Shown: positions 15,728 through 37,699 of the stretch, piece by piece
Layout of the letters: every line of letters starts with the position of its first letter
Numbering within the stretch: the first letter of the stretch is position 1
The notes under the pieces: generated by a model
The model's input: the letters and a program-made list of their open reading frames with translations, nothing else
The model's database searches: none
What the model was told of the DNA's origin: nothing
Translations under genes and position numbers: made by a program
Assembly (NCBI GenBank): GCA_007570785.1
Contig: ML661900.1
Span: 6,457,108-6,521,107, forward strand
Direction: 5' to 3'
Source of the DNA: Antilocapra americana
Lineage: Eukaryota > Chordata > Mammalia > Artiodactyla > Antilocapridae
Length of the DNA: 64,000 nucleotides

Positions 15728-18700
15728 CAGTTCAGTTCAGTTGCTCAGTGGTGTCCGACTCTTAGTGACCCCATGAGCTGCAGCACACCAGGCCTCCCTG
15801 TCCAACACCAATTCCTGGAGCCCACCCAAACTCGTGTCCATTAAGTCAGTGATACCATCCAACCATCTCATACTCTGTCGTCCCCTTCTCCTCCTGCCCT
15901 CAATCTTTCCCAGCATCAGGGTCTTTTCCATTGAGTCAGCTCTCCACATCAGGTGGCCAAAGTATTGGAGTTTCAGCTTCAACATCAGTCTTTCCAAGGA
16001 ACACCCAGGACTGATCTCCTTTAGGATGGACTGGTAGGATCTCCTTGCAATCCAAGGGACTCTCAAGAATCTTCTCCAACACCACAATTCAAAAATATCA
16101 ACTCTTCGGCACTCAGCTTTCGTTATAGTCCAACTCTCACATCCATACATGACTACTGGAGAAACCATAGCCTTGACTAGATGGACTAATGTTGGCCAAG
16201 TAATATCTCTGCTTTTTAATATGCTGTCTAGGTTGGTCATAACTTTCCTTCCAAGGAGTAAGCATCTTTTAATTTCATGGCTGCAATCACCATCTGCAGT
16301 GATTTTGGAACCCCCCAAAATAAAGTCTGCCACTGTTTCCACTGATTCCCCATCTGCTTCCCATGAAGTGATGGGTCCAGATGCCATGATCTTAGTTTTC
16401 TGAATGTTGAGCTTTAAGCCAAATTTTTCACTCTCCTCTTTCACTTTTCCTCTTTAGTTCCTCTTCACTTTCTGCCATAAGGGTGGTGTCATCTGCATAT
16501 CTGAAGTTATTGATATTTTTCCCAGCAATCTTGATTCCACCTTGTGTTTCTTCCAGCCCAGCGTTTCTCATGATGTACTCTGCATTTAAGTTAAATAAGC
16601 AGGGGTACAATATACAGCCTTGACGTACTGCTTTTCCTATTTGGAACCAGTCTATTGTTCCATGTCCAGTTCTAACTGTTGCTTCCTGACCTGCATACAG
16701 GTTTCTCAAGAGGCATGTCAGGTGGTCTGGTATTCCTATCTTTGTCAGAATTTTCCACAGTTTATGGTGATCCACATAGTCAAAAGCTTTGGCATAGTCA
16801 ATAAAGCAGAAATAGATGTTTTTCTGGAACTCTGTTGCTTTTTCAGTGATCCAGCGGATGTTAGCAATTTGATCTCTGGTTCCTCTGCCTTTTCTAAAAC
16901 TAGCTTGAACATCTGGGAGTTCACGGTTCACATGTTGCTGAAGCCTTGCTTGGAGAATTTTGAGCATTACTTTACTAGCGTGTGGGATGGGTGCAATTGT
17001 GTGGTAGTTCGAGCATTCTTTGGCATTGCCTTTCTTGGGATTGGGATGAAAACTGATCTTTTCCAGTTCTGTGGCCACTGCTGAGTTTTCCAAATTTGCT
17101 GGCATATTGAGTGCAGCACTTTCACAGCATCATCTTTCAGTATTTGAAATAGCTCAACTGGAATTCCATCACCTCCACTAGCTTTGTTTGTAGTGATGCT
17201 TCCTAAGGCCCACTTGACTTCACATTCCAAAATGTTTGGCTCTAGGTGAGTGATCACACCATCGTGATTATCTGAGTTGAGAAGGTCTTTTTTGTACAGT
17301 TCTTCTGTGTATTCTTGCCAGCTCTTCTTAATATCTTCTGCTTCTGTCAGGTCCATACCATTTCTGTCCTTTATTCATCTTTGCATGAAATGTTCCCTTG
17401 GCATCTCTAATTTTCTTGAAGAGACTTCTAGTCTTTCCCATTCTATTGTTTTCCTCTATTGCTTTGCGTTGATTGCTGAGAAAGGCTTTCTTATCTCTCC
17501 TTGCTATTCTTTGGAACTCTGCATTCAGATGGGAATATCTTTCCTTTTCTCCTTTGCTCTTCACTTCTCTTCTTTTCACAGCTATTTGTAAGGCCTCCTC
17601 AGACAGCCATTTTGCTTTTTTGCATTTCTTTTTCTTGGGGATGATCTTGATCCCTGTCTCCTGTGCAATGTCACGAACCTCTGTCCATAGTTCATCAGGC
17701 ACTCTGTCTATCAGATCTAGTCCCTTAAATCTATTTGTAACTTCTACTGTATAATCATAAGGGATTTGATTTAGGTTATACCTGAATGGTCTAGTGGTTT
17801 TCCCCACTTTCTTCAATTTATGTCTGAATTTGGCAATAGGGACTTCATGATCTGAGCCACAATCAGCTCCCAGTCTTGGTTTTGCTGACTGTATAGAGCT
17901 TCTCCATCTTTGGCTGCAAAGAATATAATCAGTCTGATTTCAGTGTTGGCCCTCTGGTGATGTCCATGTGTAGAGTCTTCTCTTGTGTTGGTGGAAGAGG
18001 GTGTTTGCAATCACCAGTGCATTTTCTAGGGAAAACTCTATTAGCCTTTGTGCTGCTTCATTCTGTACTCCAAGGCCAAATTTGCTTGTTGCTCCAGGTG
18101 TTTCCTGACTTCCTACTTTTGCATTCTAGTCCCCTACAATGAAAAGGACATCTTTTTTGGGTGTTAGTTCTAAAAGTTCTTGCAGGTCTTCATAGAACCA
18201 TTCAGCTTCTTCAGCATTACTGGTGGGGGCATCGACTTGGATTAACGTGATATTGAATGCTTTGCCTTGGAAACGAACAGAGATCATTCTGTTGTATTTG
18301 AGATTGCATCCAAGTACTGCATTTTGGACTCTCTTGTTGACTATGATGGCTACTCCATTTCTTCTAAGGGATTCCTGCCCACAGTAGTAGATAAAATGGT
18401 CATCTGAGTTTAATTCACCCATTTCAGTCCATCTTAGTTCGCTGATTACTAGAATGTGGACGTTCACTCTTGCCATCTCCTGTTTGACCACTTCCAATTT
18501 GCCTTGATTCATGGGCCTAACATTCCAGGTTCCTATGCAATATTGCTCTTTACAGCATTGGATCTTGCTTCTATCACCAGTCCCATCCACAACCGGGTGT
18601 TGTTTTTGCTTTGGCACCACTCCTTCATTCTTTCTTAAGTTATTTCTCCACTGATCTCTCCATTATCATATTGGGCACCTACCGACCTGGGGAGTTCATC

Positions 18701-20996: not shown

Positions 20997-21201
20997 GGTG
21001 GTTTAGTTGTTAAGTCGTATGCGACTCTTGTGACCCTGTGGACTGTAGCCTATCAAGCCCCTCTGTCCATGGAATTTTGCAGGCAAGAATACTGGAGTGC
21101 ATTGCCGTTTCCTTCTCCAGGGGATCTTCCTAACCCAGCAATAGAACCTGGGTCTCCTGCACTGCAGGCAGATTCTTTACTGACTGAGATATCAAGGAAG
21201 C
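20997..21201 (-). mobile_element. Bov-tA-type SINE
   Basis: A reverse-complement copy. It sits between the two copies of the LTR-like direct repeat. Confidence 0.88.
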
Positions 21202-21243
21202 ACTGATTCATCCTGAGTCATAACTCCTTCTGGGGGCAGCCCA

Positions 21244-24159: not shown

Positions 24160-24570
24160 TTTTTTTTTCTTTACTTTATTGTATTGGTTTTGCCATACAA
24201 TGACATGAAACCGCCATGGGTATACATATGCTCCCCCTCCAGAACCCCCCTCCCTCCTCCCTCCCGATTCCCTCCCCCTGGGACATCCCAGTGCACCAGC
24301 CCCGAGCATCAACCCTGGGCTGGCGATTGATTTCACATATGGTAATTAACACGTTTCAATGCCATTCTCCCATATCATCCCACCCTTGCCCTCTTCCACA
24401 GAGTCCACGAGTCTGTTCTATACATCTGCGTTTCTTTTGCTGTCTCGCATGCAGGGTTCTCGTTACCATCTTTCTAAATTCCATATATATGCGTTAGTAT
24501 ACTGTATTGTTGTTTTTCCTTCTGGTTTACTTCACTCTGGATAATAGGCTCCAGTTCCGTCCACCTGAGT
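24160..24570 (-). mobile_element. Ruminant L1 (L1-BT-like) 3' end
   Basis: A poly-T (24161-24169) is followed by the reverse complement of the L1 3' UTR: ttggttttgccatacaatga, a C-rich tract, and tctgttctatacatctgcgt. It ends at the block gttccgtccacctgag, the same region present at about 36225-36250 in the plus-strand copy. It is 5'-truncated. Confidence 0.9.
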
Positions 24571-34509: not shown

Positions 34510-34958
34510 GAGCCAAGGAGGAAATGAAAATGCAGTCCTTTTGTTCAGTATGATTAAGGATTTTAAGATGGTGTTTGCAGAGTATTGAAGTCACTGTGAA
34601 GATTAAATTCAGTGAGCTGCCCTCACTTATAGGGCTTCCCTGCTTCTCTCCACCCTCATTCCTGTTCATATCCACTTAGTAGGTTCTCATAAATTGCTAC
34701 TGAATGACAACTAAAACTCTCATATGTGCTGGAATGACATGGAACTCTCAAAAGTTCTCTAAATTCATGAACTTTGCCTTGAATTAAGTCTTGGTTTAAT
34801 GCATGCTATAAAAATGATAACAGATGTGTCTGATGCTGCAAATAAAGGATGGCAACTCATCCAGCCTTTGAAATATGGAATACTGATGGGCCAGATCATG
34901 GAAACTACAAATGGTAGGGACCTAGGTCCACCAAGGACCTATTTTTGGAGCTATAAGG

Positions 34959-35215
34959 AAAAGGAAAAGACAGTGCATTCTAGGTTTCTTGCCATATTTA
35001 CCCAGCTTAAAGAGCAATCATTTGATTCTACCCTTGAACTTGATTGTCAAGGTGATATCCTTTTAAAGACATTTCCTGCTCCAGAGAAGATAGATAATGG
35101 GGCCCTACCCAACTCTGAGTCTGTGCTGGGGGTGTGAAGGAGAGAGCTATGTGTGGGGCTTTGAATCCACGTCACATCAGACCAGGCATGGGTCAAATCA
35201 TGTCACTCAAAGTGG
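34959..35215 (+). repeat. Large perfect inverted repeat, left arm (257 bp)
   Basis: It starts aaaaggaaaagacagtgc and ends cactcaaagtgg. The reverse complement is present without any difference at 37050-37306. The arm is ordinary non-repetitive sequence. A-rich sequence follows at 35235-35280. A perfect 12-bp palindrome, ggacctaggtcc (34918-34929), stands 29 bp outside the arm. Confidence 0.97.
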
Positions 35216-36069
35216 GAAGGAGAGCAAAGTGAAAAAGTGAACAACAAAAACAAAAAAAAACCCACCTAGCAAAAAAAAATCAAGGCTTTTAGACTTTGGA
35301 CACTCGCTTTTTCTAAGGGTGCCAAAGGTATACTCAAAAGCACCTTGGCATGGTGGCTGGGTGGAGGAGTAGGAGAGCATGGGACAGAAGTTCTGTCTTT
35401 AAAATGTTTGTCTAATGAGCTTGGTTAATTAGCAAGGTTGCATTGTGCCTGCCCCTCCTGGGTCTGACAGGACAGTGAGAATTATGAAATGGCCTCTGGC
35501 AGATGAACAGGGATAGCCTCCACCATCTGTCTTCCAAATGATCCCATAGGTACAGCTATTATTTCAGCCAGACACTGGCAGTCAGGCAATTGTTCACAGC
35601 CTCTGTGAAGAATAGCGGCTGTCGAGGGTTTGGTAGGTGTTACAACTTCCCACAGGCCCGTTTTCAGGTTGTCTAAGACATTAAAACACAGAAGGGACAC
35701 GGCCTGTGACTGACCGGGAACTTTGCGTGGCCTTTTCTCCTCTCCTCTGTCCACCTACTCTCCCCCTTTATGCCCTTCTTCCCCACTCCTCTCCCACTTC
35801 TTCTCCTCACCCTTTTCTCCTCCTTTCTCTTTTTTTCTCTTCCTCTCACAAAACTACACAAATATCTTGGGAGAAAAGTTACTGCTGCCTCCAGGAGGCC
35901 TGGAGTGAAGAGAAGTGGGTGTTGAGATAGAGTCGGCAAAGGAAACTAGACGAGAACCTCTGCAAACTTGGCCAGAGGTCAGTCCGGAATCCTTGGTGGA
36001 ATCCCAGGGAGGGAGAGACACAAAGAGAAATTCCAGTTCACAGAAGAGATTCCCTCAAAGACGCGCAGC

Positions 36070-36650
36070 CACGTGTACCCCAATGTTCATCGCTGCATTG
36101 TTTACAATAGCCAGGACATGGAAGCAACCTAGATGCCCATCAACTGACGAATGGATAAGAAAGCTGTGGTACATATACACAATGGAATATTACTCAGCAT
36201 TAAAAAAAAAATTCATTTGAAGCAATTCTACTCAGATGGACGAAACTGGAGCCCATTATCCAGAGTGAAGTAAGCCAGAAGCAAAAACAACAATACAGCA
36301 TATTAACACATATATATGGAATTTAGAAAGACGGTAACGAGAACCCAACATGCGAGACAGCAAAAGGAATGCAGATGGTATAGAATAGACTCGTGGACTT
36401 TGTGGATGAGGGTAAGGGTGGGATGATATGGGAGAAGGGCATTGAAACAAGTTAATTATCATATGTCTAATCAATTGCCAGCCCAGGATTGATGCTTGGG
36501 GCTGGTGCAGCGAGATTTCCCCGGGGGGAGGGAGGAGGGAGGGGGGTTCTGGAGGGGAAGCATATGTAAACCCATGGTGATATCATGACAATGTATGGCA
36601 AAAACAATAATAAAAAAAAAAGAAACAGAGGATCAAAAAAAAAAAAAAAA
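36070..36650 (+). mobile_element. Young 5'-truncated ruminant L1 (L1-BT-like) with 13-bp target-site duplication
   Basis: This holds the end of ORF2 (cacaatggaatattactcag, giving MEYYSALKKK) and the L1 3' UTR, then an A-rich tail. The direct repeat aaagacgcgcagc occurs at 36057-36069 and 36648-36660; its last AAA merges with the tail. Close agreement with the antisense copy at 24160-24570 and an exact duplication point to recent insertion. The tail is split. A first A run (36612-36621) is followed by 13 other bases (36622-36634) and a second A run to 36650. Confidence 0.93.
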
Positions 36651-36698
36651 GACGCGCAGCATTAAACATTACTTTGACTATGGCTAATAGGTTGGCTA

Positions 36699-36905
36699 GG
36701 GCTTCCCTCGTGGCTCAGTGGTAAAGAACCCTCCTGCCAATGCAGGAGACATGGGTTCGGTCCCTGGGTCAGGAAGATCCCATGAAGAAGGAAATGGCAA
36801 CCCACCCCAGTATTCTTACCTGGGAAATCCCATGGACAGAGGAATCTGGTGGGCTACAGTCCATGGGGTCGCAGAGAGTCAGACATGACTCAGAGACTAA
36901 ACAAT
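36699..36905 (+). mobile_element. Bov-tA-type SINE
   Basis: A complete sense copy with the head ggcttccctcgtggctcagt. It lies about 40 bp beyond the young L1 and within the spacer of the large inverted repeat. Confidence 0.92.
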
Positions 36906-37049
36906 AGTAACGACAACAATAAGCTGGCTAGAAGACACAGAGTCTTATCAAAATCCCCTAAAAGTAGGAGTGGATTTGAGCACGCTAAATAGCTTTCCAT
37001 TGGCAAATGCACTTGTTTATCAGTGTTTTAATTTTCATTCCTTTATGGA

Positions 37050-37306
37050 CCACTTTGAGTGACATGATTTGACCCATGCCTGGTCTGATGTGACGTGGAT
37101 TCAAAGCCCCACACATAGCTCTCTCCTTCACACCCCCAGCACAGACTCAGAGTTGGGTAGGGCCCCATTATCTATCTTCTCTGGAGCAGGAAATGTCTTT
37201 AAAAGGATATCACCTTGACAATCAAGTTCAAGGGTAGAATCAAATGATTGCTCTTTAAGCTGGGTAAATATGGCAAGAAACCTAGAATGCACTGTCTTTT
37301 CCTTTT
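37050..37306 (-). repeat. Large perfect inverted repeat, right arm (257 bp)
   Basis: This is the exact reverse complement of 34959-35215, compared by eye across all 257 positions. Identity stops sharply at both ends. The 1834-bp spacer contains unassigned sequence, the young L1 and a Bov-tA. Confidence 0.97.
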
Positions 37307-37699
37307 GGTAGTGCTTCCAGTCTTATAATTTCCCTCTCTAACTCTTTCTCTCCTTTCTTTCCCCAACTCTCCACCCACTGCCACCATCCTGCTCATTGTA
37401 ATGCTTCAAAACAAAACAAAACAAAAATCCTTCTCCTTGGCTGCTTCAGCTGCAGGAGGTGTCATACATTAAACTCACTGTATCTAATTAGACAGTGTAA
37501 ATAGTGTAAATTGTTTCCTTGTTTCAGCTTTGCCAGGAAGAGAATCTGAATACTGTATGGGGAATATTGCTGAGATGCCTGTGTGACTCACAATCAACCT
37601 AAAGTTTCTTCTACTAAGATTTCAGTGACCTCTTTTCCTAGACAGCATGATTTTTTCTTTTTTGGGGAGGGGCTTTGGCTTTGGGAATAGATAAAATAT

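Follow-up and report, generated by a model that had tools for sequence, protein, structure and literature searches.

A perfect 257-bp inverted repeat in repeat-strewn DNA, with its right arm in an ancestral setting and a left arm that is most likely an inverted copy of it

How do two stretches of DNA come to be exact reverse complements of one another at a distance of 1.83 kb, and which of the two was there first? These are the questions raised by a locus in the window (the whole 64-kb stretch of DNA that was analysed, presumably ruminant-like judging from its repeat families). The original prediction described here a perfect inverted repeat of 257 bp in which identity stops abruptly at both ends, and both points were borne out, the arms agreeing in 257 of 257 bases around a spacer of 1834 nt and the adjoining base being mismatched at each end of both arms (Table 1). 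Under a simple random model ca. 1e-141 such pairs are expected, and a chance origin of the repeat is therefore negligible. The arm had also been said to occur nowhere else in the window, and a BLAST search of the arm against the window (word size 7) did recover these two copies only, the next-best match being 33 nt long at 79% identity (E = 0.045). Along similar lines, all other duplications in the window were said to carry mutations, which holds as far as they were examined: the other self-matches have identities of at most 86.5% (among the matches listed, the 60 longest), and on no other antidiagonal do exact 25-mer matches sum to more than 62 nt. For the claim that the arm is not a known transposon the support is indirect, consisting of the lack of a third copy in the window and of any Rfam family at the arm in a scan of the window. 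Three explanations had been put forward for the perfect identity, i.e., a very recent duplication, gene conversion between the arms, or an assembly error. We believe that a recent duplication in repeat-strewn DNA is the best supported of the three, and that gene conversion is less needed.

Table 1. Features of the inverted repeat and its spacer (positions in the window).
Feature	Position	Strand	Basis or remark
Left arm	34959..35215	+	Most likely the derived inverted copy; 257/257 reverse complement of 37050-37306; left-hand setting followed by 0/4 outside proteins (P0001-P0004)
Right arm	37050..37306	-	Copy in ancestral setting; P0002-P0004 cross 37306/37307, P0001 crosses 37049/37050
Spacer	35216..37049	.	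1834 nt between the arms
J1, left flank to left arm (most likely derived)	34958..34959	.	Junction letters
J2, left arm to spacer (most likely derived)	35215..35216	.	Junction letters
5'-truncated copy, presumably L1-like	36058..36660	+	12-nt target-site duplication AAGACGCGCAGC at both ends
SINE copy	36698..36904	+	Many copies in the window

The polarity of the duplication comes from sequences outside the window, predicted proteins from metagenome gene sets that are apparently animal DNA read as protein. The query spanning the left outer junction, a frame of 124 aa, yielded one protein among five candidates (P0001), and the query across the right outer junction, a frame of 68 aa, yielded three among three candidates (P0002, P0003 and P0004, with 88, 84, and 73% identity to the frame, respectively). 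All four have diverged from the window sequence. The three right-hand proteins read from the outer end of the arm through 37306/37307 into the right flank; they also match the left arm, as expected, but over 39 residues only. In the right flank P0002 agrees with the window at 26 of 28 residues and P0003 at 21 of 24, levels that 0 of 20,000 shuffles attained in each case; the two codons adjoining the junction, of which one agrees and one differs, are left out of both figures. P0004 contributes an in-frame piece of seven residues, all identical (reached by 3 of 20,000 shuffles); over its first 13 residues the match to the right flank lies in another frame (10/13, E = 0.002). The product of the left-hand query, P0001, aligns only to the arm part of that query. 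When compared with the whole window it runs from the right arm across 37049/37050 into the end of the spacer, with 19 of 28 residues identical there (again reached by 0 of 20,000 shuffles) and one window stop codon within this stretch. The best agreement with the left-hand setting was 3/28 for P0002, 4/24 for P0003, and 5/28 for P0001 (P0004 was left out of this comparison). The last 39 residues of P0002 and P0004 do not differ, and the two may come from one species or from close ones, so that the four proteins do not necessarily stand for four species.

Taken together, P0001 on one side and P0002 to P0004 on the other indicate that the end of the spacer, the right arm and the right flank are contiguous outside the window, which contradicts the right arm as the insert. 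The right arm is in its ancestral setting. We compared four ancestral states, namely an insert at the left, an insert at the right, and an inversion filled in at the one or the other end. Both right-hand junctions are accommodated by an insert at the left alone, and the left arm is thus most likely the derived one, a later inverted copy placed between 34958 and 35216; we infer this insertion from the right arm, which is in its ancestral setting.

As to how the copy was made, we consider it quite probable that a single recent germline event inserted it at this site by a templated process, of the FoSTeS/MMBIR or the synthesis-dependent end-joining type. At 34958, the end of a break or a nascent strand that had stalled would have switched to the opposite strand ca. 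1.8-2.3 kb downstream, 257 nt would have been copied backwards from 37306 to 37050, and the copied strand would have rejoined at 35216 with no more than 2 nt of homology. Template switching at a fork, or synthesis-dependent end joining, is expected to yield just such a product, a short inverted copy whose template lies about 2 kb off and whose junctions have next to no homology. At J2, the dinucleotide GG closes both the arm and the left flank, which gives 2 nt of microhomology if flank and spacer were once joined directly. At J1 the microhomology is 0 nt, assuming a clean empty site. With 0 nt at one junction and only 2 nt at the other, replicative switching and end joining are not separated.

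An inverted second copy near its source is one feature of a templated inverted local duplication, and this is what is found here. Comparable structures have been catalogued in our own species: in the available text of a survey of 1,019 humans, once mobile-element insertions are set aside, inverted duplications make up the commonest class of inversions (277 of 733); their median length is 284 bp, and most have 1-15 bp of microhomology, from which a replicative origin was suggested (PMC12350158). The present case is alike in size (257 vs. a median of 284 bp) and in its little junction homology, but J1 is without any microhomology, J2 having 2 nt; besides, that catalogue deals with variants among many people, whereas here we have one assembly and a polarity drawn from outside sequences (PMC12350158). 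For MMBIR/FoSTeS the microhomology at the junctions is quoted as 2-5 bp (PMC2621351). The inverted copied stretch and the scarce homology are alike, the 2 nt at J2 falling within that range and the 0 nt at J1 outside it. In contrast to the events described in that source, as far as its available text goes, there is a single small copy here with no further switches, and the mechanism is read from the product alone (PMC2621351). A limited search of the livestock literature found no description of an inverted duplication of this kind in cattle. There is no sign of a gene or of a regulatory role, and we regard the repeat as an inverted duplication without known function.

The main rival is that the assembly is wrong in the left copy only, an explanation that we hold to be unlikely and nevertheless the most serious of the alternatives. 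The left arm would then derive from a chimeric or fold-back read, or from a bad gap fill at 34958/35216, and perfect identity is just what such an artefact would yield. There is A-rich low-complexity sequence directly to the right of the left arm (ca. 35240-35280), and none of the independent sequences found carries J1 or J2. The one protein retrieved with the frame across J1 matches its arm part only, and the empty site, i.e., the left flank joined to the spacer, returned zero candidates when searched as a frame of 70 residues. However, the absence of J1 is weak evidence, as the right arm is likewise without an identical match outside (the best being 88%). The copy is also cleanly bounded, with unique DNA on either side, and a missed sequencing adapter gives a palindrome without a long spacer, which counts against an artefact of that sort. 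Moreover, hundreds of genuine inverted duplications of similar length are catalogued in humans (PMC12350158, in the text available). The left arm is probably present in the animal rather than in the assembly alone.

It is improbable, to a clearly greater degree, that the inverted duplication is older and that its arms were homogenised by gene conversion. Closely spaced inverted arms can convert, and at two residues, with Lys for Gln at the first codon of the arm and Leu for Ser, the arms agree with each other and depart from each of the three outside proteins in one alignment (A1). If these differences arose on the branch of the window, they either came before the copying event or spread through conversion. 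However, mutation before copying accounts for them equally well, and an origin on the outside branch is possible too. Were the arms as old as the split, ca. 10 differences between them would be expected and 0 are seen, a rough estimate that takes both differences as having arisen on the window side and that fails if conversion acted. Conversion would also be expected to leave decay at the ends of the arms, yet identity reaches the last base at each end, which would favour recency over conversion. Using mammalian rates of 2.4e-9 to 1.2e-9 per site per year, 0 differences over 514 sites (2 x 257) place the 95% upper limit of the age at 2.4-4.9 Myr, a bound that presumes independently evolving arms. 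This suggests that, in the absence of gene conversion, the duplication is less than ca. 2-5 million years old.

The least likely by far is a small staggered-break inversion, a known maker of inverted duplications around an inverted segment, in which the spacer would have been flipped and the breaks filled in on both sides to leave inverted copies at its ends, for either polarity of it breaks one right-arm junction and needs that junction to be new, while those of the arm with the right flank (P0002-P0004) and with the end of the spacer (P0001) both occur outside the window.

The spacer itself contains ca. 1 kb without a listed repeat, the 3' end of the presumed L1-like element and one SINE copy, the latter two both clear of the arm boundaries. 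Positions 36230-36625 of the former are 86% identical to 24166-24570. Its target-site duplication, at 36058 and 36649, includes two CpG sites and is identical on both sides, which suggests that the element entered the spacer rather recently. The SINE, which we take to be of the Bov-tA type, has an imperfect 12-nt repeat on its two sides (TAGGTTGGCTAG / TAAGCTGGCTAG; region 36686-36930), and judged by it is perhaps older than the L1-like copy. Another stretch of note, 37202-37396, consists of part of the right arm and the adjoining right flank; it has 88, 84, and 73% translated identity to three outside sequences, although there is no evident gene in it, and is possibly a slowly evolving noncoding stretch.

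Elsewhere in the window, frames on the minus strand of 15740-18662 carry a Pfam reverse transcriptase domain (RVT_1, 16431-17129) and, at 18129-18662, a match to an endonuclease family below its cut-off. We read the region as a broken non-LTR retrotransposon, presumably BovB. Ten reading frames chosen from 25, the arm's own excluded, were scanned with Pfam and two matched, both of them mobile-element remnants. One of the SINE copies (21001-21204) includes a tRNA-like stretch at 21127-21198 (31.4 bits against an Rfam gathering score of 29); a scan of the window by ARAGORN with the bacterial code found no tRNA gene. We rejected an RNA element as a reading of the repeat, this tRNA-like stretch being the sole Rfam match at gathering score in the window and lying away from the arms. 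Terminal inverted repeats of a transposon were rejected too, as the right arm joins both of its neighbours in outside sequences and there is no third copy in the window. Neither viral contigs nor genome contigs contained an exact 25-nt pattern of the arm (0 matches in each). The DNA of the locus had no match in phages (distant search), plasmids (near and distant searches) or E. coli genomes (distant search). Patterns from P0001 and P0002 against viral contigs, and from A1 against genome contigs, gave 3, 72, and 112 matches, respectively, with 0 confirmed relatives.

There is finally the question of what such a pair of arms can do once in place. The original prediction was that they can drive recurrent inversion of the spacer, and the geometry would permit it. 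Recombinogenic long inverted repeats have been characterised by a stem >30 bp, an identity >85% and a spacer <2 kb (Wang and Leung, quoted in PMC4319165), a combination found in only 35 of the 138 inverted repeats near deletion breakpoints in the available text of that source. With a stem of 257 bp, 100% identity and a spacer of 1834 nt, our repeat lies within all three limits, and it differs from that class in being a locus with no observed deletion, inversion or breakpoint. Nothing found points to an inversion: in P0001 the right-hand end of the spacer is oriented to the right arm just as in the window, and by this comparison that end is not flipped. Later instability of the locus is possible. 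We would give little credence, about as little as to homogenised older arms, to the stronger version in which the left arm is young and still polymorphic, perfect 257-bp pairing flips the 1.83-kb spacer, and both orientations segregate. At this locus, a kind of structural change that has been catalogued in humans is seen in one clean case, in which donor and insert can be told apart. If real, it would also be a ready test site for the recombination of perfect 257-bp arms 1.8 kb apart in a mammalian germline.
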